Positions 5,722-35,879 of a DNA stretch of 64,000 bases are shown here, piece after piece. The notes under the pieces are model-generated. The model was not told the DNA's origin and made no database searches. It saw nothing but the letters and a program-made list of their open reading frames with translations. Source of the DNA: Acidovorax sp. CF316 (GTDB lineage Bacteria > Pseudomonadota > Gammaproteobacteria > Burkholderiales > Burkholderiaceae_C); contig NZ_AKJX01000162.1 of the NCBI RefSeq assembly GCF_000276605.1, positions 1 through 64,000 on the forward strand, written 5' to 3'. The translations under genes were made by a program, and so were the position numbers. How positions within the stretch are numbered: position 1 is the stretch's first letter; every line of letters starts with the position of its first letter.

Positions 5722-5738
5722 GGTGAAACGGATGGAAC

Positions 5739-6737
5739 TCAGTCGAGCCGGATGTTGTTGCTCTTGATCAGCTGCACCGTGGCCCGGGCCTCGCGGTCCA
5801 CCACGGCGGCGATCTGCGCCTGCGGCGTGGCGATGGGCTCGGTGCTGGTGTCGTAGAGCATCTGGGCCAGCGCCGGCTCGGCCGTCACCGAACGGAACAG
5901 GCCGTGCAGCCGCACCACCAGGGCATCGGGCAGGCCGGCGGGCCCCCACACGCCCACCCAGGTGCTGAATTCGAGGCCAGGTAGGGTCTCGGCCAGCGTG
6001 GGCACCTCGGGTGCGATCTTGCTGCGCACGGGCCCGGTGTAGGCCAGCACCCGCACCTTGCCGGCGCGCATGTGCGGGATGGCCGAGCTCGGTGGCTCGA
6101 AGCCAATGTCCACCACGCCCGCCAGCAGGTCGGTGATGAAGCTGCCCTTGTAGGGCACATGCTGCAGCTCGATGCCGGCGACGTTCTGCATCTGCTCGGT
6201 GAACATGTGCGAGGTGCTTCCCGGGCCGTGCGAGGCGTAGTTCAGCGTGCGCGGCCTGGCCTTGGCCATCGCGATCAGCTCCTTGAGCGAGCCGGCCGCA
6301 AAGCCCGGGCGCGCCAGCAGGAACGAGCCACCACCGTACAGCTGCGCAATCGGCACCAGGTCCTTCTGCGGGTTGTAGGGCAGCTTGGGGAACAGGAAGG
6401 GCGTGGTGGTGAAGGTGGCGCCCACCGTCATCAGCAGGGTCTGCCCGTTGGCGGGGGCCTTGGCCACCACGTCGGTGCCCAGCATGCCGCCCGCGCCGGG
6501 CCGGTTCTCCACCACGACCGGCACCTTGATGAGCCTGCCAAACTGCTCGGCGTACAGGCGCGCCATGGGGTCGATGCCCACGCCGGGTGGCGTGGGCGTG
6601 ACCAGGCGGACCGGGCCGTCGGGCCATTTGGCCTGGGCCCGGGCGGGCAGCATGGTGGCCAGTGCGGCGGCACCCAAGGCCGCCAAGGCGGCCCTGCGGC
6701 CGTCGATGGCGGCGGGTTGGTCGAATGCATCATCCAT
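5739..6737 (-). CDS. Bug/TctC-family periplasmic solute-binding protein
   Basis: A 332-residue member of the tripartite tricarboxylate transporter receptor family that is hugely expanded in Burkholderiales. It has an N-terminal signal (hydrophobic run, cleavage near ARAQA), then the family segments VRLVTPTPPGVGIDPMAR and VVENRPGAGGMLGTDVVAK. No TctA/TctB membrane genes are nearby, which is common for Bug proteins. The ATG at 6737 is preceded by GGAG. It lies inside the catabolic operon, so the ligand may be the carboxylate degraded by the neighbours; the ligand itself cannot be read from sequence. Confidence 0.9.
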   Translation of the reverse strand: MDDAFDQPAAIDGRRAALAALGAAALATMLPARAQAKWPDGPVRLVTPTPPGVGIDPMARLYAEQFGRLIKVPVVVENRPGAGGMLGTDVVAKAPANGQTLLMTVGATFTTTPFLFPKLPYNPQKDLVPIAQLYGGGSFLLARPGFAAGSLKELIAMAKARPRTLNYASHGPGSTSHMFTEQMQNVAGIELQHVPYKGSFITDLLAGVVDIGFEPPSSAIPHMRAGKVRVLAYTGPVRSKIAPEVPTLAETLPGLEFSTWVGVWGPAGLPDALVVRLHGLFRSVTAEPALAQMLYDTSTEPIATPQAQIAAVVDREARATVQLIKSNNIRLD

Positions 6738-6789
6738 GTCTTGTCTCCGAATATTGATTATTGATGGGGTGTCAGCGCAGTCGGCTACC

Positions 6790-7383
6790 TCAGGGGATGT
6801 GCATGTCCCAGGGGGTCTTGCCCGCCGGCAACTGCGGGCGTGCCGTGAGCACGGCCAGCGGCTCCCCGGCCTCGTAGCGCGCGATCAGCGCCTCGGGATC
6901 GAACAGGATGCCCATGAAGTTCTCCTCATAAGCGCCCGAGGCGAAAAACGCGTCGAGGTCCGCATTGGCCGTGAACACGTCGTATTGCAGCTCCACCCGG
7001 TTGCCGTCGGGGTCCTTGTAGTACATCGACACCGTGGGGCCGTGGTTGATGGTCCAGTACGGCAGGATGCCCGCGGCCTTGAGCCGGCGAAACGTGGCCA
7101 GCAGTGCATCCAGCGTCGGGTAGGTGAAGGCCAGGTGCTCCAGCCCGCCCGCGCCGTCGTTGGCCGGCGTGAGTTCGGGCCGGCCGATCAGGCCGATGCG
7201 GTGGTGCTCGTCGTCGTAGGTCAGAAAGCACAGCATCTCGTTCTCGAACGCGGGCCAGCCCTGCAGCACCGTGAGGTACCAGGCGCGCGCGCGCGGCAGG
7301 TCGGTGACGCGCAGCACCACGTGGGCGAGCTTGGCGGGACGGATGGGATGCGCGGCGGCATCCGGCAGGGTGCGGGCTTGCAT
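6790..7383 (-). CDS. VOC-superfamily protein, extradiol dioxygenase-like
   Basis: A 197-residue vicinal-oxygen-chelate protein with two betaalphabetabetabeta halves. Metal-ligand candidates are in the expected places: His in KLAHVVLRV (about residue 21), His in GLEHLAFTY, and Glu in DPDGNRVELQYD. This His-His-Glu pattern fits type I extradiol dioxygenases or glyoxalase-like isomerases. The C-terminus ends in GKTPWDMHIP, with a long helical tail (AYEENFMGILFDPEALIARY). A good AGGAG precedes the ATG at 7383. With the FAH hydrolase next door, a ring-cleavage plus hydrolysis route is plausible; substrate unknown. Confidence 0.8.
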   Translation of the reverse strand: MQARTLPDAAAHPIRPAKLAHVVLRVTDLPRARAWYLTVLQGWPAFENEMLCFLTYDDEHHRIGLIGRPELTPANDGAGGLEHLAFTYPTLDALLATFRRLKAAGILPYWTINHGPTVSMYYKDPDGNRVELQYDVFTANADLDAFFASGAYEENFMGILFDPEALIARYEAGEPLAVLTARPQLPAGKTPWDMHIP

Positions 7384-7408
7384 GGGGTTTGTCTCCTGTG
7401 CTTTTGGT

Positions 7409-8269
7409 TTATGGTTCTGCGATCACACGGTTTTCGATGGCACCGATGCCCTCGATCTCCACGCGCACCACATCGCCCACCTGCAGGTAGCGCGGCGGGT
7501 CCATCAGGCCGCCCACGCCGGCGGGGCTGCCGGTGGTCAGCACGTCACCCGGCTCCAGGGTGAAGGCGGTGGTCAGCTCCTCGATCATGTCTTCCACGCG
7601 GTAGGTCATCTCGCGGGTGTTGCCGTCCTGGCGCAACTCGCCGTTGACCCAGGTGCGCAGGCGCAGGGCATGCGGGTCGGGCAGCTCGTCGCGCGTCACG
7701 ATCCAGGGGCCGAAGGGGCCGTGCGTGTCGAAGGACTTGCCCAGTGTGTGCGTGGGCGATCGCATCTGCCAGTCGCGCACGCTCAAATCGTTGGCCACCA
7801 CGAAGCCGGCCACCATGTCCATGGCGTCCTCGCGGCGCACGTGGCGGCAGCGCCGGCCGATGACCACGCCCAGTTCGCCTTCGTAGTCGAACTCGTGCGA
7901 GACGCGCGGCAGGTGCACCGGCGCGTAGGGGCCGTTGACGCAGCTCACCTGCTTGTTGAACCAGGCCTGGCCGGGGTTGCGCACCAGGTTGACCTTGCGC
8001 GCCTCTTCCAGGTGCGAGGGGTAGTTGCCCCCCAGGCCCAGGTACTTGCGCGGCGCGGGGATGGGAGCGAGCAACTGCACGGCGGCCAGGTCCAGCCGGG
8101 GGGCGCTGGCGGCGGCGGTGCGGGCCCAGTCCAGCCCCGGCTGGCCCAGGGCGAGCAGGGCCATCAGGTCCCGGGGTGCGCCGGCGATGGCGCCCAGGTC
8201 GGCCACCGCGGCGCCTTCGACCACGCCATAGCCAGCGCGGCCGTCGATGGAGAAACTGGCGAGCTTCAT
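7409..8269 (-). CDS. Fumarylacetoacetate hydrolase (FAH) family protein
   Basis: A 286-residue protein of the FAH superfamily, which cleaves C-C bonds in acylpyruvates or isomerises/decarboxylates homologous ring-fission products. Signature segments are KYLGLGGNYPSHLEEA, FDYEGELGVVIGR (acidic metal ligands), VAGFVVANDLSVRDWQ and LTTGSPAGVGGLMDPP. Its ATG overlaps the azoreductase stop codon (ATGA), so the two are translationally coupled. Candidate activities are fumarylpyruvate or acylpyruvate hydrolase; the sequence alone does not choose. Confidence 0.87.
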   Translation of the reverse strand: MKLASFSIDGRAGYGVVEGAAVADLGAIAGAPRDLMALLALGQPGLDWARTAAASAPRLDLAAVQLLAPIPAPRKYLGLGGNYPSHLEEARKVNLVRNPGQAWFNKQVSCVNGPYAPVHLPRVSHEFDYEGELGVVIGRRCRHVRREDAMDMVAGFVVANDLSVRDWQMRSPTHTLGKSFDTHGPFGPWIVTRDELPDPHALRLRTWVNGELRQDGNTREMTYRVEDMIEELTTAFTLEPGDVLTTGSPAGVGGLMDPPRYLQVGDVVRVEIEGIGAIENRVIAEP

Positions 8270-8907
8270 GGTGCCACCGCCTCTTGCGCGGCGAAGAGCT
8301 GGGCGATGGCGGCCCGGGCCGAGGCCAGCGCGGCATCGCGCACCTCGGGCCCGCGGTTCACGCCCTCGGCGCGCACCACGTCGAAGCGGGTGATGCCCAT
8401 GAACTGCAGGGCCGCGACCAGGTAGCGCTCCTGGAAGTCCTTGTCCTGCATCTGCGGCGGGGTGCTGTAGATGTTGCCACGCGACGAGGCGATGACCACG
8501 CGCTTGCCGCCAGCCAGGCCGCGCGGGCCCTGGGGGGTGTACTCGAAGGTGCGGCCGGCCTGGGCCAGCGCGTCGATCCAGGCCTTGAGCTGGGTCGGTA
8601 CGCCGAAGTTGTACATGGGCGCACCGATCACGATGGCATCGGCCGCCAGGAACTCATCGAGCAGGGTGTTGATGTGCGCCAGGTCGGCTCGGCCCTGTGC
8701 ACTGGCCGGCTCGCTGCGCAGGCGCAGCGCAGCCACGGTCTCGGGCGTGAGCTGGGGCGGTACGGTCACCGCCAGGTCGCGGTAGGTGACGCGCACGGAG
8801 GGGTCGGCCGCGCGCCAGGCGTCCACCGTTTCGCGGCCCAGCAGGCGCGAAACGGAGGCCGGGCCGGTAAGGCTCGAATCCAGGTGGAGGAGGTTGAAGG
8901 GGGTCAT
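8266..8907 (-). CDS. azoR: FMN-dependent NADH:quinone/azo reductase
   Basis: A 213-residue flavodoxin-fold oxidoreductase that reduces quinones or azo compounds with NAD(P)H. The FMN-binding N-terminus (LLHLDSSLTGPASVSR) and the family motif GAPMYNFGVPTQLKAWID are clear, as is the glycine loop ASSRGNIY. MTPFNLLHLDSS at 8907 is the standard start, although the frame stays open to 8985. It is the first gene of the five-gene minus-strand operon and lies divergent from a LysR regulator 131 nt away, the classic layout for regulation by that LysR protein. Confidence 0.9.
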   Translation of the reverse strand: MTPFNLLHLDSSLTGPASVSRLLGRETVDAWRAADPSVRVTYRDLAVTVPPQLTPETVAALRLRSEPASAQGRADLAHINTLLDEFLAADAIVIGAPMYNFGVPTQLKAWIDALAQAGRTFEYTPQGPRGLAGGKRVVIASSRGNIYSTPPQMQDKDFQERYLVAALQFMGITRFDVVRAEGVNRGPEVRDAALASARAAIAQLFAAQEAVAP

Positions 8908-18412: not shown

Positions 18413-19873
18413 TCACGCCCGGTTCAGGAACATCCGTGTGGCCTTGAGCCCCACGGGCGTCCAGTGCAGCGCCGGCGACATGGCCTGGACCAGCAGATCC
18501 CGCCGCTCGACGGCGTCCAGCGTGGGATAACGCTGCTCGAAGATCTCGAAGTCCGTGTCCAGGGCCGCTGGCGCAGGCTCGGAGCGCCCCCCCTTGGCGG
18601 CCTTGAGCCGTTCGGCCACGCGAAAGCTCATCTGCCGCTTGCCCGTGGCCGGGGTGGCGCCGGTCTCGAAGGGCGCCCCATCGGCACTTGCCGCACCACG
18701 GATCCAGTCGTGGATCACCTGCAGTTCGTAGGGAGAGAACACGCCGAACATCTCGGCACGCTCGCCCTGCAGCAGGTGCCAGAAGCGGCTGTCGGTCACG
18801 GGCTGGTTGCGTTTGATCCATTGGGCCTGTTCGAGCGCAGCCAGAAACGCAGGCAGGTCATCGGCGTTGGACAGCCAGTCGTTCACGCTGCGGCCGGCCA
18901 CCTTGCAGAAGTCGGAATGCGCGCCATGGCCTGACGGCGCCTTGCGCGCCAGGATGGCCAGCACCTCCCTGTCGATGTCGAAGCCGTCGATCACATCCAG
19001 CGTGCTGACCCCCACGTTGCCCAGCTTGGCGCCTGCACGCACCCGGCGCCAGTAGTCTCCACCGTCGTCGATGCGCGGTGCGGCTTCCAGCGCTGCCACG
19101 CAGGCGCGCTTGGCATGCCCCGTGTCGGCATTGTCGACCGTGACGTGCAGCGTGAAATAGTAAGGGTCGATGCCCAGTTCATTGAGTTCGTAGGCGGTGA
19201 TGAGCAGGTGCAGGGGCAACTGCTCGTAGCCCAGGTTAAAGCCCACGATCTCGGGCAGGAAATCCTGCGCATTCCATCCCAGCCCGACCTGCACCAGCCC
19301 CTGCTGGTACAGCGCGTCGGGCAGGTCATCGACGGGGTCAAGGCCGTAGTGGGCGAGCAGCGCGCGGTACAGCTTCACGTGGTTCTTGTCGGCCAGGCCG
19401 TCACCCAGTTCTTCCACATAGGTGGTGACCAGGTCCGACAGGCGGGAGTTGTCCGCATGCGCGCACAGGCCATACAGCCACGACCCGTCGACCAGCTTGG
19501 TGGGCGCGACATTGCGAAGAAAGTACAGGGCGTGGGCCCGGTTGGTGAAGTACCGGCGTGGTGCGCCGGCCTTGCGGGCATCCAGGTAGGCCTGGTACTG
19601 GCCGTGGACCCGCAAGATATTGGACTCCATCCAGGCCATCAGATCGGCAGGGTGCGCGGGCAGATCGTCGTCGCCCAGCTCCAACCCGTGCAGGGTCTCG
19701 CGCAGCAAGTCTGCAGCGGCCCCACGCTCCTGCGCGCTGGGGATATGGTTTGCCAGGCGGTCATAGAGGGGCGCGTAGAGCGCTGCTGCTCGCACAGCCG
19801 GGGCGGATGCGATGGCGTCAAGGGAAGCGATGGTCGTTTCGGAACGTGGGCGTTCCTGCAAATGGAGGTACAT
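18413..19873 (-). CDS. Heme-oxygenase-like diiron (HDO) family protein with C-terminal extension
   Basis: A 486-residue protein with an iron-containing redox enzyme (Haem_oxygenas_2-like) core. Likely iron ligands are in TYVEELGDGL (E154/E155), KNHVKLYRALL (H165) and YFTLHVTVDNADTGHAKRA (H243, D247 or D250, H253), the spacing typical of HDO oxygenases and oxidases. Known HDOs catalyse N-oxygenation, C-C cleavage or desaturation in natural-product pathways. The protein is longer than usual (about 220-340 residues) because of about 200 extra C-terminal residues that I cannot assign. It lies 129 nt downstream of the ATP-grasp gene on the same strand. The start at 19873 has no strong ribosome site. 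The actual reaction is unknown. Confidence 0.75.
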   Translation of the reverse strand: MYLHLQERPRSETTIASLDAIASAPAVRAAALYAPLYDRLANHIPSAQERGAAADLLRETLHGLELGDDDLPAHPADLMAWMESNILRVHGQYQAYLDARKAGAPRRYFTNRAHALYFLRNVAPTKLVDGSWLYGLCAHADNSRLSDLVTTYVEELGDGLADKNHVKLYRALLAHYGLDPVDDLPDALYQQGLVQVGLGWNAQDFLPEIVGFNLGYEQLPLHLLITAYELNELGIDPYYFTLHVTVDNADTGHAKRACVAALEAAPRIDDGGDYWRRVRAGAKLGNVGVSTLDVIDGFDIDREVLAILARKAPSGHGAHSDFCKVAGRSVNDWLSNADDLPAFLAALEQAQWIKRNQPVTDSRFWHLLQGERAEMFGVFSPYELQVIHDWIRGAASADGAPFETGATPATGKRQMSFRVAERLKAAKGGRSEPAPAALDTDFEIFEQRYPTLDAVERRDLLVQAMSPALHWTPVGLKATRMFLNRA

Positions 19874-20002
19874 GGTGTGTTGTCGTTGGATATGGACTCA
19901 GGGTGGGCCCTTGCCATCTCCGCCACTATCGGGACAAGGCTCCCATGGGCGTGGGCAGCCTCCTACGACCGCTGGCTCGCCACCCCTTGCGGCCAAAGAA
20001 AT

Positions 20003-21301
20003 CTACAGATAGCCCCATTGCCGCAGACGGGCCAGGCTTTCATCCGATACCCGCGCACCGATGTCGTTGCGGTAGCGCAGATTGGGCACGTAGACCTTGC
20101 GCGCCACGTCGAGCGCGCGAAGGCGCGCCGCCTCCACCGTCGGTGCGCACCCGGTGGCCACGCCCACGTAGCCGCAGGTGCCGCTGGTGACCAGGGAGCC
20201 CTGGCGCATCTCCACCTCGGCGAAGGCGATGGCCGCGCGCTCCGCGTGCGACAGGCTTTCGTCCAGGATCACCGGAATGCCCTTGGAGAGCTCTTCGTAT
20301 CCCTGTGCATGGGGAAACGGCGGTACGGTGAGCACCACGCCCACCGCAAAGCCGGGTACCGTGGCGAAGTGGGTGTGCGAGCGGCGAAGCATTTTCAGGA
20401 AGATCGCTTCCCACGGTTCCCGGTGCAGGCTTTCGCAGATGGCATAACCGGGATAGCCAAAGCGGCTGGTGAACTCCAGCGGCCACAGCCCTTGCGCGTT
20501 GGCCATGAGGTTCACATTGATGTAGCCGCAATAGCCGCCATCGCGCAGCACGCCCGCCAGGGGTTCCAGGACCAGCTCGCGCAGCCTGCCGCTGCCGCCG
20601 TAGCTGACCACCGTGCCCATCTCGCCCGTCAGCTCCCCCAGTTCCCCGGGAAAGAAGCGCTTGTGCTCGAAGTCGATGCATGCCGTCTCGAGAAACTCGG
20701 CACCGTTGAAATACCCGCCCACGCCAATCTCGATGCCATCGATGTATTCCATGAGCACGAAATCCGGGGAGGGCACGGGTGCTTCGTGCGCAGTGTAGAA
20801 CTCCAGCAGCGCGGCCAGGTCGCTGCTGTCGCCCTTCTGGGCAATGTAGTTCCTGGTGCGCGGGCTGGCGGCGCCGTTGAACTTGAGCACGAAGCGCTGG
20901 CGCCGGGCGGCGAGAAAGTCCACGGCCTGGCGGTAGGAGGTGAACGAATGGCTTGCCGCAGTGCGCAGGCCAGCCTGCCGGAGCACGGACTGGCCATACT
21001 CGCGCTCGGCCTCCAGCCGGTCGCCCAGGGCGCTGCCACCGATGACCTGGAAGCCTTGCGCCCGCAAGGCGTCCTGCACCTCGCCCTGGTCCGCCGTCTC
21101 GAAAAGGATCAGTCCCTCGGGCCCGGCCTGCCGGACCCAGCCGAGCTCCGTGTTCCAGTCGTCCGTGCGCGTGAGCATGCCCGCGAACACGCCATGGCTG
21201 GCCGGATCACGGACGAACACCCTGACCTCGTGCCCCCGTGCCTGCATGCCGCCGTACATGGCGGCCAGGTCGTTGCTGGCCCCGATGCCCAGGATCCTCA
21301 T
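20003..21301 (-). CDS. PurD-like ATP-grasp ligase
   Basis: A 432-residue ATP-grasp enzyme. The N-terminus MRILGIGASNDLAAMYGGM resembles the PurD-type pre-grasp domain. The ATP lysine region is RFVLKFNG, and the metal-binding segment WPLEFTSRFGYPGYA parallels the EFNxRFGDP of GAR synthetase. ATP-grasp ligases join a carboxylate to an amine through an acylphosphate. It is not a housekeeping purD, being too divergent and linked to methyltransferase and diiron genes. The ATG overlaps the methyltransferase stop (ATGA at 21298-21301). I infer that it makes an amide in a small-molecule or peptide pathway. Confidence 0.8.
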   Translation of the reverse strand: MRILGIGASNDLAAMYGGMQARGHEVRVFVRDPASHGVFAGMLTRTDDWNTELGWVRQAGPEGLILFETADQGEVQDALRAQGFQVIGGSALGDRLEAEREYGQSVLRQAGLRTAASHSFTSYRQAVDFLAARRQRFVLKFNGAASPRTRNYIAQKGDSSDLAALLEFYTAHEAPVPSPDFVLMEYIDGIEIGVGGYFNGAEFLETACIDFEHKRFFPGELGELTGEMGTVVSYGGSGRLRELVLEPLAGVLRDGGYCGYINVNLMANAQGLWPLEFTSRFGYPGYAICESLHREPWEAIFLKMLRRSHTHFATVPGFAVGVVLTVPPFPHAQGYEELSKGIPVILDESLSHAERAAIAFAEVEMRQGSLVTSGTCGYVGVATGCAPTVEAARLRALDVARKVYVPNLRYRNDIGARVSDESLARLRQWGYL

Positions 21302-22251
21302 GCTGCCGGCTTGTGCACCACCAACCCGATCGCGGCGATCCGGTCCACCGGGGCGTACTCGGGCCGGTCGAGTTCCTCGCCAAAGACATCGGAGTCGATC
21401 TCGCGCCGCGTGAAGTGGCAAGCTGCGCGTGCTGCCGTGGCGGCAGCCCACTCGGAAAAGGGGTCCACGCCCTGCACCACGGCGGAGCCGGTGTACAGGA
21501 TGAGCCGGCCACCAGGGCGCAGGTGGGCGATGGACTGTTCAAGGATGCGCTGCGAGAGCCCTTCGCCATAGTCGCCACCACCGTGCCGGTAGATGCGCTT
21601 GGCCGCATCGACCAGATAGGGCGGGTTGGAGACGATCAAATCGAAATCGCCCACCACATCCTGGAACAGATCGGTCTGGGCGAAGGTGCAGCAAGTGCTC
21701 TGCGCGAGGCGGGCATTGGCCTGCGCCAGCACCAGCGCCTGGGGATTGATGTCCGCAAGCACCAGCTCCTGAACGCTGTTTCCGGCCGCGCGCGCCGCCA
21801 CGATTCCACCCGGCCCGCCGCCGCAGCCCATGTCCAGCACCCGGCTCGCGGCCCCCACGGGGCGCACGGCCAGTTCGGAGCCGATAAGGGCCGCGAACCG
21901 ATAGGTATCGGGGCCGAAGAAGACCGCATCCTCCTCCAGCGTGGGAAAACCCGAGTGGGCATACAGCCCACCGGCGAGGCTGCTGTACCGCACCGTGCTT
22001 TTGCGCAGGCCACCCTCCAACTCCGCGATGAGCTGTGCTGAAACCAGTTTCTCCGATAACAGCGCTGGTAGCAGTGCGCTATCGAAGGGCAGGTTCCAGC
22101 CAAAGGCATCGCGCAGGTCGCACGCAGGCAGGTCGCCCCGGTTGCGCAGCACCCGCTGGTGGGTCAAGGGCGTGACCGTCGTGAATTCATAGTTGCGGGC
22201 TTTCAGGTAGACGCCCAACTCAACCAGTGCAGCAATGCGTTGTTCGTCCAT
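21298..22251 (-). CDS. PrmC/HemK-like SAM-dependent methyltransferase (NPPY motif)
   Basis: A 317-residue class I methyltransferase. The SAM loop is VLDMGCGGGPGGIVAA, the acidic residue after beta-2 is in LVLADINPQAL, and the catalytic motif is LIVSNPPYLVD. NPPY enzymes methylate amide or amine nitrogens, such as glutamine in PrmC or exocyclic amines of bases. The roughly 130-residue N-terminal part ends in FFGPDTYRFAALIG and is not the PrmC release-factor domain I would expect, so the target is probably different. The start at 22251 is 7 nt after the stop of the 70-residue peptide gene. The next gene is coupled by ATGA. Confidence 0.82.
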   Translation of the reverse strand: MDEQRIAALVELGVYLKARNYEFTTVTPLTHQRVLRNRGDLPACDLRDAFGWNLPFDSALLPALLSEKLVSAQLIAELEGGLRKSTVRYSSLAGGLYAHSGFPTLEEDAVFFGPDTYRFAALIGSELAVRPVGAASRVLDMGCGGGPGGIVAARAAGNSVQELVLADINPQALVLAQANARLAQSTCCTFAQTDLFQDVVGDFDLIVSNPPYLVDAAKRIYRHGGGDYGEGLSQRILEQSIAHLRPGGRLILYTGSAVVQGVDPFSEWAAATAARAACHFTRREIDSDVFGEELDRPEYAPVDRIAAIGLVVHKPAA

Positions 22252-22258
22252 GGCGTGG

Positions 22259-22471
22259 TCAGCATCCTCGGTACAGGTAGGCCTCGAAGCGGTTACCCAG
22301 GCATTTCCCGAGTTCGCTTTGCGGAATATCCGCAGTTGTAGCGGGTACCTTGGCAGGAATTTCGTCCCCCTCCACCAGACCCACAGCGGCAGAAGCGCCA
22401 TAGGCGACCATGGCCAAACCTGCGCCGATGAAAGACACGGCGCTGGCCGCAGGGGGGCGTTGCTGCAACAT
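22259..22471 (-). CDS. Small 70-residue protein with one membrane segment and C-terminal Cys
   Basis: A short gene with a strong ribosome site (GGAGGT, 4 nt before ATG at 22471). The product has one hydrophobic stretch (about residues 11-33, ending AYGASAAVGLV) and a polar tail containing GKCLGNRFEAYLYRGC, ending in Cys. No family is recognised. It lies 7 nt upstream of the methyltransferase and is in effect the first gene of the methyltransferase/ATP-grasp/diiron cluster. It could be a membrane accessory protein or a substrate peptide; the sequence does not decide. CTCCTACA, the stress-type element core, lies about 60 nt upstream (22529-22536). Confidence 0.6.
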   Translation of the reverse strand: MLQQRPPAASAVSFIGAGLAMVAYGASAAVGLVEGDEIPAKVPATTADIPQSELGKCLGNRFEAYLYRGC

Positions 22472-23010: not shown

Positions 23011-23643
23011 TCACTGGATCAGGTTGTTCTTGAGTGCGTAGTACGTCAAGTCGCTGTTGGAATCGAGGTGCAGCTTTTCCATCAGGCGCGTGCGGTAGGT
23101 GCTCACGGTCTTGACGCTCAGCGACAGGTCTTCGGCGATCTCGCCGACGTTGGCGCCCTGGGCGAGCTTGAGGAACACCTGGAACTCGCGCTCGGACAGA
23201 TGTTCGTGCGCGGGCCGCTCACCGGGGCGGTTGAGCTGCTGGGCCAGCAGTTCGGCCACGGTGGGCGTGAGGTAGCGCTTGCCCAGCGCGATGACGCGGA
23301 TCGCCTCGACGATCTCGGAGGGCTTGCACTCCTTGTTGAGGTAGCCGCTCGCGCCCTGGCGGATCAGGTTGATGGCGTAGTGCTCCTCGGGGTAGCCACT
23401 GAGGATGAGGATGCCCATGTCTGGCGCCTTGGCGCGCAGCATGGACATGGCATCGAGGCCGCTCTGCCCGGGCATGGCCAGGTCCATCACGAGCACGTCG
23501 ATGTCGTGCTCGCGGATCAGGTCGATGGCTTCGCGCCCGTTGCCGGCTTCTCCTTCCACCCGCAGGTCCACGTGGTCGGCCAGGAACTGGCGCAGGCCTG
23601 CACGAACGATTTTGTGGTCATCCACGATGCCGATCTTGATCAT
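23011..23643 (-). CDS. NarL/FixJ-family response regulator
   Basis: A 210-residue two-domain regulator. The receiver has IVDDH at residues 6-10, phospho-acceptor D54 in VMDLAMPG, and the Lys in GYLNKECKP. A LuxR-type HTH (about 145-205) contains LSEREFQVFLKLAQG and SVKTVSTYRTRLMEKL. It binds DNA when phosphorylated by an unknown kinase; no kinase is adjacent. It lies 50 nt downstream of ligD on the same strand, so it may be co-transcribed with the NHEJ genes, but a functional link is not shown. Confidence 0.92.
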   Translation of the reverse strand: MIKIGIVDDHKIVRAGLRQFLADHVDLRVEGEAGNGREAIDLIREHDIDVLVMDLAMPGQSGLDAMSMLRAKAPDMGILILSGYPEEHYAINLIRQGASGYLNKECKPSEIVEAIRVIALGKRYLTPTVAELLAQQLNRPGERPAHEHLSEREFQVFLKLAQGANVGEIAEDLSLSVKTVSTYRTRLMEKLHLDSNSDLTYYALKNNLIQ

Positions 23644-23693
23644 TTTGGTTTTTTCTATGGTTGATGAGAAAGCTGAAATGGGGTGAATTCGGT

Positions 23694-26237
23694 TCAGTCC
23701 TTGGCGCTGTAGCCCAGCAGGCGCATGGCGCCCGACAACGAGACGGCGGCCGCCGCGTAGCCCTGCCAGGGCGCATTGCCCTGGCGCAGGCGCTCGCCTA
23801 CGGTGCGCACCGTCCAGTGCGCGCCGCTGGTGAGCGCGTCCAGTTCCTTCCAGGCCACGGGCACCGAGATGCCCATGCCCTCGCGCGAGCGCGCGGACCA
23901 GGCGCTCACGGTGGTGGCCCCACGCCCGTTGCGCAGGTAGTCCACGAAGATCTTGCCCACCCGGTTGCGCGGGCCGCTCTTGGCAACGAAGCGCGCGGGA
24001 ATGGTCTCGGCCAGGTGCTGCACCACGGCCTGCGAGAAGCCCTTGACCGTGTCCCAGCCCTGCAGCCGCTTGATGGGCACCACCACGTGCAGGCCCTTGC
24101 CGCCGCTGGTCTTGAGGAAGGCCGGCAGGTGCAGCTCCTTGAGCATCACCTGCACCAGCTGGGCCGCCTGTTGTACCTGCTCCCAGGACACGCCCTCGCC
24201 CGGGTCCAGGTCGAAGGTCATGCGGTCGGGGCGCTCGATCCGGTCCTTGCGCGCGTTCCAGGTATGGAACTCCAGCACGTTCATCTGCGCGGCCGACAGC
24301 AGGCCCTCGGGCCGGGCCACTTCGAGCAGCGGCGCATGGCCTGCGTCGAGCGCCGGATCGAGCAGCGCCACGCCTTGCATGCTCCCCTTGTCCAGGTGCT
24401 TCTGGAAGAACAGCTCGCCGCCCACGCCGTCGGGCGCGCGCACCAGCGACACGGGCCGGCCCTTCAAGTGCTCCATCATCAGCGGAGCCACGGTGGCGTA
24501 GTAGCGCACCAGCTCGATCTTGGTGATGCCGGATGCGGGGTCGATCACGCGGTCGGGGTGCGAGATGCGCAGCGCATCCGGCAGGGATGCCGCGGCGGCC
24601 CTGGCCCTGCGTGCAACCGGTGGTTTCTTCTTTTTCTCGATGGCGGCCATGGCCTGGGGTTTCTCCTGCACGATGGCTTTGGCGGGCTTGTCCGCGCGCA
24701 GGCCATGGAACACCGAATGGCGGATACGCCCTTCCTTGGTCCACTCGGCAAACGACACCTCGGCCAGCAGGCGCGGCTTGATCCAGTGGGCCTTCTTGCC
24801 AACCGCCGTGCCCTCGGGGAACGGGCTTTTGGTGGTGTGCAGCGCCGTAAGCCTGGTAGCCAGTTCCTGCAGGGTGTGCTCGCTGAAGCCCGTGCCCACG
24901 TTGCCCGCATAGCGCAGCGCGCCATCGTCGCCATGCACGGCCAGCAGCAGCGAGCCGATGCCGGTGCGCGAGCCCTGCGGGTCGGTGAAGCCGGCGATCA
25001 CGAACTCCTGCCGGTGGCTGCACTTGAGCTTGATCCAGTCGGCATTGCGCCGCGAGGCATAGGGCGCCGCCTTGCGCTTGCCGACCACGCCCTCGAAGCC
25101 CAGGTGGCAGGCCGAGGACACCAGGTCCGAAGGCTGGGCCTCGAAGCTCTCGCTGAAGCGCACGCGGTCGGTCGCCACCTGCTCCACCAGGGCGCGCAGC
25201 CGCTCGCGGCGCTCCACCACGGGCAGGCCGCGCAGGTCGTGCCCGTCGGCATAGGGCAGGTCGAACAGGTAGTACACCAGGTCCTTGGCCACGCTGGCAT
25301 CGAAGGCGTTCTGCAGCGCCTGGAAGTCTGGCGTTCCGTGTTCGTCCATGGCCACCACTTCGCCGTCGAGCCAGCCGGAGGACAGCGGCAACTCACCGAT
25401 GGCCTTGACCAGCTGCGGCATGCGGTGCGTCCAGTCGTTGCCGTTGCGCGTGAACAGGCGCACGGAGCGGTTGTGCACCCGCGCCAGCAGGCGGTAGCCG
25501 TCGAACTTGAGCTCCCAGAGCCAGTCCGTTGTGTCGGCCGGCGGCTTGTCCACCAGGGTGGCCAATTGGGGTGCCAGGGTGTCGGGCAGCGGCACCTTGG
25601 GCCGCTTCGCGGTCCGGGCCGGCGGTGCCTCGGCGCGGGCGATGCCGGCAGGCCCGGGCGGAGCCAGGGGCGCGAGTGACGTCACGCTGTCGGGCATTTC
25701 TTCGACCACGCTGAACTCGGCGGCAGGCCGCTCGAAATCGTCGTGCTCCTTGATCAGCAGCCAGGGGGCTTGTTTTTCGCCGCCCTTGCCATGCATGCGC
25801 ACCAGCGTCCAGTGGCCTTGGAGCTTGTGGCCGTGCAGCGCGAACTTGAGCTTGCCCTTGAGGTAGCCCTCGGCCGCATCGCCCACGGGCACCCAGTAGC
25901 CCCGGTCCCAGACGATGACCTTGCCCGCACCGTACTGTTTGGGCGGTATCTGGCCTTCGAAGGTGTTGTACGAAATCGGGTGGTCCTCCACCTGCACGGC
26001 CATGCGCTTGTCGGCGGGGTCCAGGCTCGGGCCCTTGGGCACGGCCCAGCTCTTCATGGTGCCGTCGAGCTCCAGGCGCAGGTCGTAGTGCAGGCGGCTG
26101 GCCCAGTGCTTCTGGATCACGTACTGCAGCGCTTGCCCGCCCGCCTCGCCGCCCTCGGCCGGCTCGGGCGTGATGGCAAAGTTGCGCTTCTTCTTGTAGA
26201 GAGCGAGCGAGTCGGTCATCTGCGGGTCTTTCGCCAT
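23694..26237 (-). CDS. ligD: Multifunctional DNA ligase D (NHEJ)
   Basis: An 847-residue enzyme for bacterial non-homologous end joining, with domains in the order phosphoesterase, ligase, polymerase, as in Pseudomonas LigD. The 3'-phosphoesterase (about residues 10-165) has IQKHWASRLHYDLRLELDG. The ATP-dependent ligase (about 215-520) has WELKFDGYRLLARV, with K244 as the likely adenylated lysine. The C-terminal primase-polymerase (about 555-847) has RPVSLVRAPDGVGGELFFQK and the metal motif DLDPGEG. It starts 3 nt after the ku stop, so the pair is an operon. All three active sites look intact. Confidence 0.95.
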   Translation of the reverse strand: MAKDPQMTDSLALYKKKRNFAITPEPAEGGEAGGQALQYVIQKHWASRLHYDLRLELDGTMKSWAVPKGPSLDPADKRMAVQVEDHPISYNTFEGQIPPKQYGAGKVIVWDRGYWVPVGDAAEGYLKGKLKFALHGHKLQGHWTLVRMHGKGGEKQAPWLLIKEHDDFERPAAEFSVVEEMPDSVTSLAPLAPPGPAGIARAEAPPARTAKRPKVPLPDTLAPQLATLVDKPPADTTDWLWELKFDGYRLLARVHNRSVRLFTRNGNDWTHRMPQLVKAIGELPLSSGWLDGEVVAMDEHGTPDFQALQNAFDASVAKDLVYYLFDLPYADGHDLRGLPVVERRERLRALVEQVATDRVRFSESFEAQPSDLVSSACHLGFEGVVGKRKAAPYASRRNADWIKLKCSHRQEFVIAGFTDPQGSRTGIGSLLLAVHGDDGALRYAGNVGTGFSEHTLQELATRLTALHTTKSPFPEGTAVGKKAHWIKPRLLAEVSFAEWTKEGRIRHSVFHGLRADKPAKAIVQEKPQAMAAIEKKKKPPVARRARAAAASLPDALRISHPDRVIDPASGITKIELVRYYATVAPLMMEHLKGRPVSLVRAPDGVGGELFFQKHLDKGSMQGVALLDPALDAGHAPLLEVARPEGLLSAAQMNVLEFHTWNARKDRIERPDRMTFDLDPGEGVSWEQVQQAAQLVQVMLKELHLPAFLKTSGGKGLHVVVPIKRLQGWDTVKGFSQAVVQHLAETIPARFVAKSGPRNRVGKIFVDYLRNGRGATTVSAWSARSREGMGISVPVAWKELDALTSGAHWTVRTVGERLRQGNAPWQGYAAAAVSLSGAMRLLGYSAKD

Positions 26238-26240
26238 GGC

Positions 26241-27257
26241 TCAGGCCGCCCGGCGGGGCGGCGCCTTCTTGGCTGCCGTCTTCGCGGCCGTCTTGCGCGC
26301 CGGTGCTTTCTTGGCGGGGGCCTTTTTCGCCGCAGGCTTGGTGGCGGCCTTGCGGGCGGCGGGCAGCGGGGTCACCGAAGCCGCCTTGCCGGTGGCCTTG
26401 GCTCCGGTGGCCTTGCCGCCCTTGCCCTGCAGGCTGCGCTTGAGCAGTGCAGTCAGGTCCAGCACGTCGGCACCGGCCGGGGCGCTTTCCTTGCCACTGT
26501 CGACCTTGACCACTGTGGCGGTCTCGCCCGAGGCCACCTTGGTCTCGACGAGCTTGTGGATCTCCTGCGCAAACGAGTTGCGAAAGCCGTCCGCGTCCCA
26601 GGGCTGGGTCATGTCGTCGATGAGCTGCAGCGCCATGTCCATCTCGGCCGGCTTGATGCCGGCGGCCTTGGCATCAAGCGGCGGCAGGTTCAATTGCTCA
26701 AACGAGCGGATCTCGCCGCCCCAGCGCAGCAGGTTCAGGATGAGCGCGCGCCCGCAGGGGATCAGCACCGCCAGGTGCTGCTTGGTCTGGATGACCACCT
26801 TGGCCACGCCCACCTTGTTGCTCTGGCGCAGGGCCTCGCGCAGCAGCGCATAGACCTTCTCGCCGCGCTTGAGCGGGGCCGTGTAATAGGGCCGCTCCAG
26901 GTAGACGAAGGGGATCTCGTCGGCATCGAGGAAGGTCTCGATCTCGATGGTCTGCGTGATCTTGGGGTAGGCCGCGGCAATCTCCTCGGGCGTGAGCACC
27001 ACGTAGTGCCCGTCCTCGTACTCGATGCCCTTGACGATGTCGGCCGTGGCGATCTCCTTGCCCGTGACCTTGTTCACGCGCTTGTAGCCCACGGGCTCCA
27101 TGGAGCGCTTGTCGAGCCAGTCGAAGTCGATGCCCGAGTCCACTGTGGCCGAGTACAGGCCGACGGGTATGTGCACCAAACCAAAGCTGATCGCCCCCTT
27201 CCACATCGTGCGCGTGGAGGTGGGTGCCTTGCCTTCGTCTTCGGTTGCCCGCGCCAT
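26241..27257 (-). CDS. ku: Ku homodimer protein, NHEJ end-binding
   Basis: A 338-residue bacterial Ku that rings broken DNA ends and recruits LigD. The core begins RTMWKGAISFGLVHIPVGLY and contains FDWLDKRSMEPVGYKRVNK and the bridge region YYTAPLKRGEKVYALLREAL. After residue about 260 it has an extended Lys/Ala/Pro-rich tail with repeated KKAPAKKAPARK-like units. This DNA-binding, histone-like extension is known from some longer bacterial Ku proteins. It lies directly upstream of ligD and 13 nt downstream of a DUF3606 gene, all on the minus strand. Confidence 0.95.
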   Translation of the reverse strand: MARATEDEGKAPTSTRTMWKGAISFGLVHIPVGLYSATVDSGIDFDWLDKRSMEPVGYKRVNKVTGKEIATADIVKGIEYEDGHYVVLTPEEIAAAYPKITQTIEIETFLDADEIPFVYLERPYYTAPLKRGEKVYALLREALRQSNKVGVAKVVIQTKQHLAVLIPCGRALILNLLRWGGEIRSFEQLNLPPLDAKAAGIKPAEMDMALQLIDDMTQPWDADGFRNSFAQEIHKLVETKVASGETATVVKVDSGKESAPAGADVLDLTALLKRSLQGKGGKATGAKATGKAASVTPLPAARKAATKPAAKKAPAKKAPARKTAAKTAAKKAPPRRAA

Positions 27258-27553: not shown

Positions 27554-28006
27554 TCAGAAGATCGGCAGCCGGATGTTCAGGTGCGGCCCGGCCGTGAGGT
27601 CGAAGACATCGGCCTTCGCCAGGTCAGGGCTGTGGTGGAACTGCGCCTCGACGTACTCCGCCGTGAGCTGGCTGGCGATGGCCTCCAGCAGGGCGTGGGC
27701 CGTGTCCAGCCCACCGGCTGCGAAGCCGTTGCCCTCCAGCGTGTAGCTGTAGCGCCCATTGCGGTGGCTGACCAGGGCCAGCGCGATCAGATGCCCCTCG
27801 GTATCGCCCGCGTACACCCTACCCCCTGGGTAATAGAGGGTGTAGCAGCGCACTTTCTGCAGCTGGTCCTGACCGGGCGCGTGGGAGATGGCAACCTCCG
27901 GGGATGGCGGGTTGAAAAGTACGTTGGCTGCGCAGGCAACCGACTTGGCAAATTTTGCGGCGTGAACCGTCTCTGCGCAAGGGCCGGTGCCCACCGCGCA
28001 GCGCAA
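27554..28006 (-). CDS. Hypothetical protein
   Basis: The frame encodes up to 150 residues. The C-terminal two thirds look like a real soluble domain: VRCYTLYYPGGRVYAGD, then LIALALVSHRNGRYSYTLEG, and TAHALLEAIASQLTAEYVEA. The N-terminal 45 residues are Cys/Ala-rich and less convincing, so the true start may be an internal non-ATG codon. No family is recognised. It is divergent from the kai operon, and its far end is near the TGTCCTACA element used there. Confidence 0.5.
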   Translation of the reverse strand: MRCAVGTGPCAETVHAAKFAKSVACAANVLFNPPSPEVAISHAPGQDQLQKVRCYTLYYPGGRVYAGDTEGHLIALALVSHRNGRYSYTLEGNGFAAGGLDTAHALLEAIASQLTAEYVEAQFHHSPDLAKADVFDLTAGPHLNIRLPIF

Positions 28007-28014
28007 TCCGGTCG

Positions 28015-28047
28015 TGTCCTACAGTGAGGCGGTCAGGGATTTCCTAC
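28015..28047 (+). promoter_or_regulatory. Stress-type promoter element upstream of kaiC
   Basis: TGTCCTACA (28015-28023) is followed by GTGAGGC (28024-28030) and a second box CCTAC (28043-28047). The two TAC boxes are 20 nt apart and lie about 70 nt before the kaiC ATG. Closely similar pairs precede katE and the hemerythrin gene. The second box resembles the sigmaS-type -10 (KCTAYRC). Recognition by a particular sigma factor is inference. Confidence 0.5.
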
Positions 28048-28116
28048 GATGCTTACGTCCGGTCACGGCCGGAGCATCGCCAGCCCTTCATTCCATCTCC
28101 ACCTGATCGCGCACCG

Positions 28117-29874
28117 ATGGCCGCCACCCGTACAAAGCAGAAAGCCCCGCCCACAACGCCCGCCGGCATTGCCAAGTCGCCCACCGGCATCTCCGGCCTC
28201 GATGAAATCACCGAAGGCGGCCTGCCCGCCGGGCGCCCCACCCTGGTGTGCGGCGCAGCGGGCTGTGGCAAGACCATGCTGGCCGCGGAATTCCTGGTCC
28301 GAGGGGCTACCGAATACGACGAGCCCGGCGTGTTCATGATGTTCGAGGAGTCGGCCGACGAACTGGCCGAGAACATGCGTTCTCTGGGCTTCGACCTCGA
28401 AAAGCTGCAGCGGCAGAAGAAACTGGCACTGGACTTCGTGCGCGTGGAGCGCAGCGAGATCGAGGAGACCGGCGAGTACGACCTCGAAGGCCTGTTCATC
28501 CGCCTGGGCTATGCCATCGATTCGATCGGTGCCAAGCGCGTGGTGCTCGACACCGTGGAGGCCCTGTTCGCGGGCGTGCCCAACCATGCCATCCTGCGCA
28601 GCGAGCTGCGCCGGCTGTTCCGCTGGCTCAAGGACAAGGGGGTCACGGCCATCATCACCGCCGAGCGCGGCGACAGCGCCTTCACCCGCTATGGACTGGA
28701 GGAGTATGTAGCCGACTGTGTGATCCTGCTGGACCACCGCATCGCAGAACAGGTCTCCACCCGACGCCTGCGTGTGGTGAAGTACCGCGGCTCGGCCCAT
28801 GGCACCAACGAGTACCCCTTCCTGATCGGCCGCACCGGCCTGTCGGTGCTGCCCATCACCTCGCTGGCGCTCAACCACCAGGCCTCGCGCGAGCGCGTCT
28901 CCACCGGCATCGCCGGCCTGGACGACATGCTGGGTGGCCGAGGGGTATATCGGGGCAGCAGCCTGCTGGTCTCGGGCGCGCCCGGCACGGGCAAGAGCAG
29001 CATTGCTGCCAGCTTCGCGAATGCCGCCTGCGCACGTGGCGAAAAAGCCGTGCTGTTCGCCTACGAGGAATCCGAGAGCCAGTTGCTGCGGAACATGGAG
29101 TCCATCGGACTGAACCTGCGCCGTTGGGTAGACAAGGGCCTGCTCAGGATTGAATCCACGCGCCCCACCCTTCAGGGCCTGGAGCAGCACCTGGTGCACA
29201 TGTACGACCTGGTGCGCGAATTCGCGCCCAGCGTGGTTGTCGTGGACCCCATCAGCAACCTGACCTCGCAGGGCGATGACGCCGGGCTCAAGATCACGCT
29301 GATGCGGCTCATCGACTTCCTCAAGACCCAGGGCACCACGGCGCTGTTCACCAGCCTGACGGCCGATGCGGCCAACACCCCCCTGGCCACCTCGGAGGTC
29401 GGCGTGTCCTCGCTGATGGACAGCTGGCTGCTGCTGGCCAACGTGGCCGTCAACGGCGAGCGCACGCGCACGCTGCAGGTGCTCAAGTCGCGCGGCATGC
29501 CGCACTCCAACCAGGTGCGCGAGTTCGTCTTTTCCGACACGGGCGTGGACCTGGTGGACGTGTACCTCTTTGGCGACCAGGTGCTCACCGGCACGGCACG
29601 CATCGCCCACGAGGCGCAGCTGCTGGCCACCAACGACCTGCGCGGGCGCGACCACGCGCGCCGCCTTCGCGACCTGGCCAACCGCCGCAAGACACTGGAT
29701 GCGCAGATCGCGGCCCTGAATGCGCAAGCCCTGGAGCGCGCCGGCGAGGTGGAGTTCGAGATCGAGCGCGAGCAGCTGGAAGCCCAGGGCGTGCAGGATC
29801 GCGCGCGCAGCATCGCGGCCAGGCGCGGCACCAGCGGCAGCGCCGCCAGCAAACCCGCCGCACGCAAAGGCTGA
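28117..29874 (+). CDS. kaiC: KaiC-family clock/signalling ATPase with conserved phosphosites
   Basis: A 585-residue tandem RecA-like ATPase. CI has P-loop GAAGCGKT (46-53) and the catalytic Glu pair EE at 77-78. CII has GAPGTGKSS (287-295) and EE at 317-318. The CII segment [10 protein letters not shown] aligns with the cyanobacterial HISTITDT loop and puts Ser at both autophosphorylation positions (431, 432). About 65 extra C-terminal residues are charged and probably coiled coil ([20 protein letters not shown]). The ATG at 28117 gives the normal KaiC start. It is followed 5 nt later by kaiB; no kaiA is present. In other proteobacteria KaiC-KaiB pairs relate to stress fitness. Confidence 0.92.
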
Positions 29875-33470: not shown

Positions 33471-35879
33471 TCACACAGCAGGAGGATCGGTCTCCCGCTC
33501 AGGATGGCGATGGCGGGCAATGCCCTGGATGAAGGCCCCGAAGTCCGCTGGCGTGGAACCCAGGAACAGCCCGGGATCGGGATCTCCCGAAGGCAGCGTC
33601 GACGGGATCTGGGCCTTGAGCATCAAGGCCGAGGACGCGGGCATGACCAGGATGGTCTTGCAATGCCGGTGCTGGTCCTTGAGGAACTCCATCGTGTGGC
33701 CGTCGGTCGCCAGCATCCGCACACCCTCTTCCCCATCGGGCAGCGCCAGCGCATCGAACAGGAAGCCCGGTTCGTTCTCCAGCGATGCATCCGCGTCGAT
33801 GGCTACCTGGTCGGCCGTCTTCACCGGACCAATGCGGGGCGCCACGAAGCGCGGCACGGCGCCCTGCGCAAACAGGGCCGCGTGCAGTTCCACGGCGCTC
33901 TGACCGACGATGCCATCGGCCACCAGGATGGCAATCTTTCGCCCCTGGATGCTGCCGTCGCCAGGGCGTGCAAGCAGTGACAGTGCGGGCGAAGCTGCCA
34001 CCTCGGGCTTGGGCGGCTTGGCCAGGGCCCGGGGCATGGCGTCCGGCAAGGCCGCCATGCCGATGCCGGTGGCGACCTGCCGGGCCAGGTCATCCGACAC
34101 GTTGCGCAGCGAGGAGACCATGCGCTCACGGATCGCCGGCACCGTGACCTTGCTCAGCTCGAAGCGGAAGGCGGCGGCGATGTGGGCCTGCTCTACCGCG
34201 GTCTGGCTGTCGAAGAACAGGGTGGCCTGGGTGTAGTGGTCGGCAAACTTCTCGGGTTTGGCACGCACCTTGCCCTGGGCTTCCTTGGCCTCGATGCGGG
34301 CGGGCACGGAGACAAAACCCTGGGCTGCCCCGGCCTGGAACGGGCAACCACCCCCTAGCGAGTTCGGCTCGTACGCCACCTTGCCGCGATGGATGGCCTG
34401 GCGGTGCATGCCGTCGCGCTGGTTGTTGTGCACCGGGGCGATGGGCGAGTTGATGGGCAGCTCGTGGAAGTTGGGTCCGCCCAGTCGCGAGATCTGCGTG
34501 TCCACGTAGGAGTGGATGCGGCCCGCCAACAGGGGGTCGTTGGAGAAGTCGATGCCCGGCACCACGTGCGCAGTGCAGAAGGCCACCTGCTCGGTCTCTG
34601 CAAAGAAGTTGTCGGGGTTGCGGTTGAGCACCATGCGGCCGATGGGGCGGATGGGCACCAGCTCCTCGGGGATCAGCTTGGTGGCATCCAGGATGTCGAA
34701 GCTGAACGCGTCGCCCTGCTCTTCCGTGAACACCTGCACGCCGAGTTCGAACTCGGGGTAGGCGCCGCCCTCGATGCGCTCCCACAGGTCGCGGCGATGG
34801 TAATCCGGATCGGCGCCGGAAATCTTCACCGCCTCGTCCCACACCAGCGAATGGGTGCCGGCCTTGGGAGTCCAATGGAATTTGACGAACACCGACTCGC
34901 CCGCCGCATTCACGAAGCGGAAGCTGTGCACACCGAAGCCCTGCATGGTGGCATAGCTGCGTGGAATGCCGCGGTCGGACATCACCCACATCAGCATGTG
35001 GGTGGACTCGGGCATGAGCGAGACGAAATCCCAGAAGGTGTCGTGCGCGCTGGCGGCCTGCGGCATCTGGTGGTGCGGCTCGGGCTTGACGGCATGCACC
35101 AGGTCCGGAAATTTCATCGCATCCTGGATGAAGAACACGGGCATGTTGTTGCCCACCAGGTCCCAATTGCCTTCGTCGGTGTAGAACTTGACAGCAAAGC
35201 CGCGCACGTCGCGCGCCGTGTCCTTGGAGCCGCGTTCGCCCTGCACGGTGGAAAAGCGCACGAACACCGGGGTGACCTTGCCGGCCTCCTTGAACGGAGC
35301 GGCGCGCGTCAGGTCGGTCAGGGGTTCATAGCACTCGAAGAAGCCATGGGCACCGGAGCCCCGGGCGTGCACGATGCGTTCGGGAATACGCTCATGGTCG
35401 AAGTGCGTGATCTTCTCGCGCAGGATGAAGTCCTCGAGCAGCACCGGGCCGCGCTCGCCGTACTTGAGCGAGTTCTGGTTGTCGGCTATGGGCACGCCCT
35501 GGTTGGTGGTGAGCACCTGGCCGGCGGAATCGACACGCACGCGGTCCAGCGGCGCGATGGTGGCGTTCACGCCTTCTGGCGCCACCGTGCCGGTCTTGGC
35601 GCTGCTGTTTTCCTCGGAGACAGTGCTGCCCGATGGCAGGCGCGAAGCCGGCTCGGCAGTGGCGCCCTGCGCGGGGTTCACGCCGTTGGCAAAGCCGTGC
35701 TCGCCGGCCTTGTTGGGGTTGTAGGGCCTGGCGGCGACAAGCTCGTTGGTCTGTATCGCCCTGGCGGACAGCGCATCGACAGCGCCCGCCATGGCAGAGG
35801 GTGCACTGTCGGTATTTCTGGCGGGCGCAGCATCTGCGCTTTTCTTGCCGGCCTTGGCGCTCTTGGGGTCTTGGATCAT
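33471..35879 (-). CDS. katE: Large-subunit catalase, KatE/HPII type
   Basis: An 802-residue heme catalase that decomposes hydrogen peroxide in the cytoplasm. Catalytic His is in [14 protein letters not shown] and catalytic Asn in [14 protein letters not shown]; the proximal Tyr region follows near [13 protein letters not shown]. The C-terminal about 150 residues form the flavodoxin/glutamine-amidotransferase-like domain of HPII catalases ([20 protein letters not shown]). The N-terminal extension of about 80 residues is polar and low-complexity. A stress-type element lies 47 nt upstream of the ATG (35926-35957). It is transcribed alone. Confidence 0.95.

Follow-up and report, generated by a model that had tools for sequence, protein, structure and literature searches.

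In a 64,000-nucleotide stretch of DNA from Acidovorax sp. CF316 (contig NZ_AKJX01000162.1, positions 1 to 64,000; hereafter the window), a gene for a class I methyltransferase is followed by genes for an ATP-grasp ligase and a heme-oxygenase-like diiron oxidase (HDO). Across genomes, the methyltransferase and the HDO form a conserved core to which the ATP-grasp gene is a rarer addition, and the two core proteins are very probably linked in function. Both the linkage of the genes and the kinship of the HDO to DtpC, a desiccation-tolerance protein of Acinetobacter baumannii, are well supported by sequence comparison. As a tentative reading, which falls a little short of an even chance, the genes would encode a stress-associated pathway in which a small, nitrogen-rich and arginine-like metabolite is N-methylated and N-oxygenated, with the ATP-grasp ligase adding an amide bond.

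The methyltransferase and its diiron partner

A preliminary description of this DNA listed four genes on one strand, the first of them coding for a 70-residue peptide, and the coordinates bear this out. The peptide gene ends 7 nt before the methyltransferase gene (22252-22258), the methyltransferase and ATP-grasp genes overlap by 4 nt, ATGA (21298-21301), and 129 nt separate the ATP-grasp gene from the HDO gene (19874-20002). Promoter-like and terminator-like sequences did not exceed those in shuffled sequence (0 against 0.6 expected, and 1 against 2.1), so the operon structure is deduced from gene spacing and conservation. The closest relatives of the set are found on Acidovorax contigs. In one of these, locus L040, the identity is 88% for the HDO, 86% for the ATP-grasp protein and 81% for the methyltransferase.

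The methyltransferase, ATP-grasp and HDO genes recur in the same order in loci L040 and L041 (75-88% identity) and in L045, L046 and L051, the last from genome G105 (about 53-70%). Loci L042 and L044 contain the ATP-grasp and HDO genes; the ATP-grasp gene of L044 starts at the contig edge, and no methyltransferase gene lies in the 6.3 kb upstream in L042. The window's order of Ku, LigD, regulator and trio is kept in L040, and the surroundings are rearranged in L045, L046 and L051.

Frequencies were counted in 27 genomes with the methyltransferase, the union of samples from the order (7/250), the phylum (18/398) and the family (6/150). Two genes were called adjacent if at most one gene lay between them, and several HDO queries were run with tblastn to decide whether an HDO was absent beside the methyltransferase. 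Plasmid records and the seven loci of a separate contig scan, which was not used for frequencies, stand outside this count. L043 and L072 (genome G280) seem to be one Delftia record and were counted once.

The preliminary description had made its grouping depend on HDO, ATP-grasp and methyltransferase homologues being neighbours elsewhere. The HDO and methyltransferase commonly are: an HDO gene adjoins the methyltransferase gene in 23 of the 27 genomes. Eighteen of these HDOs are of the long type found in the window, and five are of a short type that resembles HrmI. The two genes may be in tandem, divergent (family f26) or convergent (L093, L094), so the pair is not one frozen operon. Tandem pairs can be tight, with a 10-nt gap in L118 and a 4-nt overlap in L146. 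Among plasmids, six of the 23 matched records with the methyltransferase were examined; a short HDO adjoins it in five of them (L113, L115, L116, L117, L149) and not in L114. When genomes are divided by the presence of a long HDO, the methyltransferase occurs in 4 of 9 with it and 2 of 141 without it (Fisher's exact test with phylogeny ignored, p 8.8e-5), and both of the latter carry a short HDO beside the methyltransferase.

The ATP-grasp gene is found with the methyltransferase and a long HDO (the window and the five loci with the same gene order) as well as with a short HDO (L094, L149). Of the four-gene cluster first described, the recurrence of methyltransferase, ATP-grasp and HDO together stands. 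The peptide probably does not belong to it, and neither is it a single unusual cluster: the core is the methyltransferase with the HDO, and other lineages carry other ligases or nitrogen-metabolism genes in this place.

The kinship of the HDO to DtpC extends over residues 44-394, with 41.5% identity. Residues E143, H153 and H232 of DtpC align with E155, H165 and H243 of the window protein, and passages of PMC13232832 report that the substitutions E143A, H153A and H232A each abolish DtpC function. Six residues, D129, E155, H165, H243, D247 and H253, are each at least 90% conserved among 25 aligned long HDOs. They are predicted to be the diiron ligands and would form a 3H/3C set, which is the majority ligand type among HDOs according to parts of PMC13108848. 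Second long-HDO copies of two genomes, G174 and G220 (L084, L085), have lost several of the predicted ligands (155, 253 and others), so these paralogues are possibly non-enzymatic.

In the A. baumannii locus L133, a 469-residue protein (start at 4908) carries E143, H153 and H232 and is directly followed by katE; the locus therefore corresponds to the published dtpC-katE pair. As far as the passages of PMC13232832 (2026) go, the pair is redundant, either gene alone sufficing for desiccation tolerance. The dried double mutant accumulates hydrogen peroxide, and the presence of either gene limits it. The authors of that paper present DtpC as the first HDO to be connected with tolerance of drying, and say that a specific mechanism cannot yet be put forward.

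The long and short HDO groups match each other with an hhalign probability of 77% (E 1.9e-5) and are therefore treated as separate types within PF14518. They also differ in the spacing of a conserved motif, which is D-x5-H in long HDOs and D-x2-H in short ones. The profile of the short type matches HrmI (E 1.3e-45), which is a lysine N-oxygenase according to parts of PMC13108848.

The methyltransferase has an NPPY motif and a conserved N-terminal part (FGW, FFGPDTYRF) in an alignment of 28 sequences. It resembles PrmC and HemK. Of 28 NCBIfam models matched, 25 were listed, and it falls short of every one of their cut-offs, for instance with 60.3 against 199.1 bits for PrmC and 53.8 against 115.5 bits for HemK. 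On the methyltransferase tree, which has a midpoint root and a long branch for L116, the long-HDO label requires 5 changes, of which well-supported branches force at least 2. The short-HDO label needs 6, at least 4 of them forced, and equal clustering of this label arose in 22 of 500 shuffles. On this tree, the oxygenase partner of the methyltransferase has switched several times.

An enzyme of this kind might instead methylate a macromolecule, protein or RNA, as PrmC and RsmC do, while the HDO and the ligase act on something else. The NPPY motif in a class I domain would fit this, as would the best matches, which are PrmC/HemK/RsmC-type models, each of those listed matching below its cut-off. 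A role in macromolecule modification is nevertheless improbable: the gene is patchy in the phylum (18/398 genomes), unlike that of a housekeeping methyltransferase, and it is linked to N-oxygenases, ligases and arginine or cyanophycin genes.

The proposed pathway and its variable partners

For the substrate, the order of steps, the reactions, the product and protection in this organism, we infer the following scheme. The three proteins would form a small-molecule pathway of a general stress programme, directed at desiccation or oxidative stress. The NPPY methyltransferase would N-methylate a planar nitrogen, guanidine or amide, of an arginine-like metabolite, and the DtpC-type HDO would oxygenate a nitrogen of this kind with O2 at its diiron centre. 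In this lineage, the PurD-derived ATP-grasp enzyme would activate a carboxylate as acyl phosphate and join this to an amine, which would yield a dipeptide-like amide. Either the product, or the turnover of O2 and iron itself, may protect dormant or dry cells.

The part given to the ATP-grasp enzyme draws on its relation to PurD, which binds its substrates through the motifs GGREH and RFGDPE-type. The sole NCBIfam match of the window protein is purD (101.8 bits against a cut-off of 288), and its best relatives in the PDB are glycinamide ribonucleotide (GAR) synthetases, by sequence and by fold (Foldseek; model pLDDT, the predicted local distance difference test score, 67). A separate PurD in the same genome (L144) has GGREH and RMGDPE, in place of which the ATP-grasp protein has GIGASND and RFGYPG, and RFGYPG is invariant in seven aligned ATP-grasp sequences. 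A PurD function was rejected on the score, the motifs and the presence of this other PurD. Because the signature motifs are absent, the protein is probably a ligase that was derived from PurD and uses another acceptor.

Close and partial copies of the ATP-grasp gene are found in several places. At the family level, G105 has a close relative, and in G109 broken pieces lie beside the methyltransferase. A 38-residue C-terminal match lies beside it in G263. The gene is intact next to the methyltransferase and short HDO of L094 (G244), and interrupted in L149, a Sphingomonas plasmid, where it is divergent from the short HDO and methyltransferase.

The neighbours of the methyltransferase and HDO vary by lineage. 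Besides the ATP-grasp gene, a YbdK/GCS2 ligase or cyanophycin genes may be present, or the methyltransferase may be fused to an arginine-dihydrolase/dimethylargininase-like domain. Family f55 has 11 loci, in 5 of which a YbdK-type carboxylate-amine ligase adjoins the pair (L118, L122, L123, L127, L128; the assignment in L118 and L122 was checked against Pfam and NCBIfam).

An example for cyanophycin genes is the plasmid pKN1 of Sphingobium yanoikuyae (L117). Its gene order is cphA, isoaspartyl peptidase, cyanophycinase, methyltransferase, HDO and dicarboxylate symporter, and the cyanophycinase and methyltransferase genes overlap by 4 nt. Genes resembling cphA also stand beside the short HDO and methyltransferase in L132, and beside a long HDO in five loci, all of family f8 (L073, L074, L076, L077, L078). 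A cyanophycinase-like gene is likewise near the long HDO and cphA-like pair in those five.

The fusion is found in Legionella sainthelensi (L116, 5092-6921). It is a 609-residue protein, annotated as of the arginine deiminase family, which joins the arginine-dihydrolase/dimethylargininase-like domain to the methyltransferase. A short HDO follows, with LigD and Ku further on. The fused domain exceeds the Pfam cut-offs for ADI and DDAH and lies below those of NCBIfam (107.9 bits where dimethylargininase requires 300, and 80.2 where arginine dihydrolase requires 450); its best match in the PDB is the cyanobacterial Sll1336.

The oxygenase can also be of a different family. In genome G684 (L130), no HDO was found, and a GntA-type N-hydroxylase (236 bits, cut-off 145) precedes the methyltransferase, which EgtD follows. 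These three genes (5008-7884) are in tandem with gaps of less than 50 nt, and EgtD scores over its equivalog cut-off; the set is an unusual one. According to parts of PMC12866846, the YqcI/YcgG family, which is GntA-type, hydroxylates the N-H of guanidines.

N-oxygenation is proposed because the methyltransferase's oxygenase partners from studied families, HrmI-type and GntA/YqcI-type, oxygenate nitrogen. An arginine-like substrate is proposed on account of the neighbours for arginine, cyanophycin and amide formation, together with the precedent of SznE, which methylates arginine before the HDO SznF hydroxylates the product (PMC11705231, in part).

Several observations weigh against this pathway. 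Three of the 27 genomes (G109, G204, G782) have neither an HDO nor a GntA-type gene beside the methyltransferase; in two of them, G109 and G204, a long HDO is encoded at another place in the genome. Apart from very weak matches, the long HDO resembles no studied N-oxygenase in sequence. A search of the PDB with the single sequence gave nothing convincing (E up to 1), and a profile search gave weak matches to a MarR regulator (0.029), an iron-containing redox enzyme (0.043) and PbrRohS (0.74). The AlphaFold model of the window HDO, made with 8 input sequences, has a pLDDT of 40. The ATP-grasp gene is rare, being found at E<=1e-70 in 1 of 398 genomes, its own. In the flanks fetched for relatives from Roseomonas (41%) and Halarchaeum (32%), neither a methyltransferase nor an HDO of these types was present. 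Arginine and cyanophycin queries and a scan of nine neighbours revealed no arginine gene in the window, and the cphA contexts may reflect merely shared storage or stress islands. A GCS2 ligase lies on another contig of the same genome as the ATP-grasp gene, so the two ligases are not simple alternatives. As a side observation, the Roseomonas ligase gene adjoins genes for a type III polyketide synthase, another methyltransferase and an FAD monooxygenase (L150, region 3792-8275).

The main rival explanation is that the HDO is a stand-alone protective protein, like DtpC, which limits hydrogen peroxide or sequesters iron in dry cells, the methyltransferase and ATP-grasp genes being separate neighbours. 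It takes this place because DtpC works where no full-length methyltransferase was found: the A. baumannii record W01 has just partial matches to the methyltransferase model (best E 5.5e-18), and DtpC, redundantly with KatE, suffices there for desiccation tolerance (passages of PMC13232832). Long HDOs were counted in 21 genomes (9/150 plus 14/399, two shared). The methyltransferase is adjacent in 7 of these, elsewhere in the genome in 6, and without a full-length match in 8. The HDO is thus less dependent on the methyltransferase, and a long HDO often occurs without it. Against the HDO acting by itself stand its position beside the methyltransferase in most genomes that have one, the replacement of one HDO type by the other on the methyltransferase tree, and the tight tandem pairs of L118 and L146. 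A stand-alone HDO is a serious but rather unlikely explanation.

The N-methylating and N-oxygenating pathway may also be part of something larger. In a bolder form, which is doubtful, a widespread stress pathway would make an N-methylated, N-oxygenated arginine-type desiccation protectant. It would have been assembled repeatedly with interchangeable N-oxygenases (DtpC-type HDO, HrmI-type HDO, GntA-type heme enzyme) and amide ligases (ATP-grasp, YbdK, cyanophycin synthetase). If this were true, the protectant might release or scavenge reactive nitrogen or oxygen species, and DtpC would be more than a scavenger, namely the oxidase of this pathway. The methyltransferase partner, the replacement of N-oxygenases and the arginine and cyanophycin neighbours give a specific, testable lead on the substrates of DtpC-like HDOs. 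They suggest that many environmental bacteria make a stress metabolite, with core genes that include no nonribosomal peptide synthetase or polyketide synthase.

Clusters of an HDO with an ATP-grasp gene are already known, and parts of PMC13185094 report at least 25 types, among which the combination of the window may be. A methyltransferase-HDO module with replaced partners was not met among the literature matches listed, which does not prove its absence. Two passages of PMC10206079, on the bioinformatics of cyanophycin genes, say nothing of such a methyltransferase or HDO.

The peptide and the neighbouring stress genes

The 70-residue peptide had been counted as a member of the cluster. It has no Pfam or NCBIfam match at E 0.1. 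It is excluded here because it is not conserved, and probably is not part of the set. A ribosomal-peptide pathway with this peptide as precursor might be suggested by an open reading frame (ORF) that ends just ahead of the methyltransferase gene, by two cysteines near its C-terminus, and by a relative in L041 (49% over residues 11-70), also ahead of the methyltransferase. In L040, however, the peptide is internally deleted, with just its start and end left in frame, and tblastn (E 1e-3) found no relative in any other locus searched, including L045, L046 and L051, where the trio is intact. A precursor role was rejected for want of a conserved precursor, and such a pathway is extremely improbable.

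Table 1. Genes of the set and stress-related neighbours in the window.
Feature	Position	Strand	Remarks
HDO, DtpC-type long heme-oxygenase-like diiron oxidase, 486 aa	18413-19873	minus	PF14518, E 2e-29
ATP-grasp ligase, PurD-like but not PurD, 432 aa	20003-21301	minus	GARS_A, E 2.9e-11
Class I methyltransferase, 317 aa, NPPY motif	21298-22251	minus	PF05175, E 1e-16
70-aa ORF, one hydrophobic stretch, probably outside the set	22259-22471	minus	no family match
NarL-type response regulator	23011-23664	minus	Response_reg + GerE
LigD (non-homologous end joining)	23694-26237	minus	also in L040, L041, L116, L122
Ku	26241-27257	minus	also in L040, L045, L046, L051, L055, L116
Large catalase KatE	33474-35840	minus	PF00199; 67% identity to KatE of L094

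The set was first described as lying among stress genes, with a product that may be protective. Ku, LigD and KatE in the window agree with this (Table 1), as does the protective role of DtpC, the nearest studied relative of the HDO. KatE is one of two catalases of the genome. In L040, the C-terminus of a matching NarL-type regulator ends about 165 nt before the methyltransferase gene.

The relatives' loci repeatedly hold stress genes near the set, in a count that had no matched control. KatE is found in L045, L046, L093, L094, L111, L122 and L133; there is a Cu/Zn superoxide dismutase in L051, GlgE in L083, an alpha-amylase-family gene in L080 and a trehalose-phosphate synthase/phosphatase in L111.

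The window also encodes a DUF72 protein, an SDR, a CZB-domain protein, an alpha/beta hydrolase, a UvrA-like protein and a tandem KaiC-domain protein. The last has 639 residues with two KaiC-type ATPase domains (27955-29874) and lies near Ku and LigD; proteins of the same cluster are found in the L040, L045 and L046 loci.

Comparison with known systems

DtpC belongs to the same long HDO family as the window protein, with its three functionally tested residues aligned and a KatE gene in the surroundings of both. The systems differ in context. The gene dtpC is co-transcribed with katE (PMC13232832, in part), whereas KatE of the window is about 13.6 kb from the HDO and not directly adjacent. Furthermore, the fetched A. 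baumannii locus has no methyltransferase or ATP-grasp gene, and both precede the HDO in the window. The lysine N-oxygenases HrmI and BelK offer another comparison. In other genomes, members of the same methyltransferase family are flanked by the short HDO, which matches HrmI, but the window HDO is of the long type and has no convincing sequence match to it. PurD is similar to the ATP-grasp protein in fold and GARS domain matches, and differs in its motifs and in being encoded elsewhere in the same genome.

The mangotoxin genes (mboA-F) also place an HDO beside an ATP-grasp ligase, and the set could be taken for a similar antimetabolite pathway, in which an HDO and an amino-acid ligase make an antagonistic peptide. 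This combination is a recognised biosynthetic one (at least 25 cluster types, PMC13185094). However, in mbo two amino-acid ligases are joined by a reductase and an arginine deiminase, whereas the window has one PurD-like ligase with a methyltransferase and no transporter among the four genes. Identity with mangotoxin was rejected, since a Pfam scan of the four genes and nine neighbours gave no second ligase, MboB reductase or MboE deiminase. A mangotoxin-like product is quite improbable as well, given that the nearest studied relative of the HDO is a stress protein and that the stress-gene surroundings recur.

The streptozotocin enzymes SznE and SznF are a known case of the proposed kind of N-methylation and N-oxygenation. 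Their HDO is fused to a cupin, which has no Pfam match in the window proteins at E 0.1. By analogy, the set would follow the same logic, in which a methyltransferase and an HDO act on an arginine-type nitrogen.

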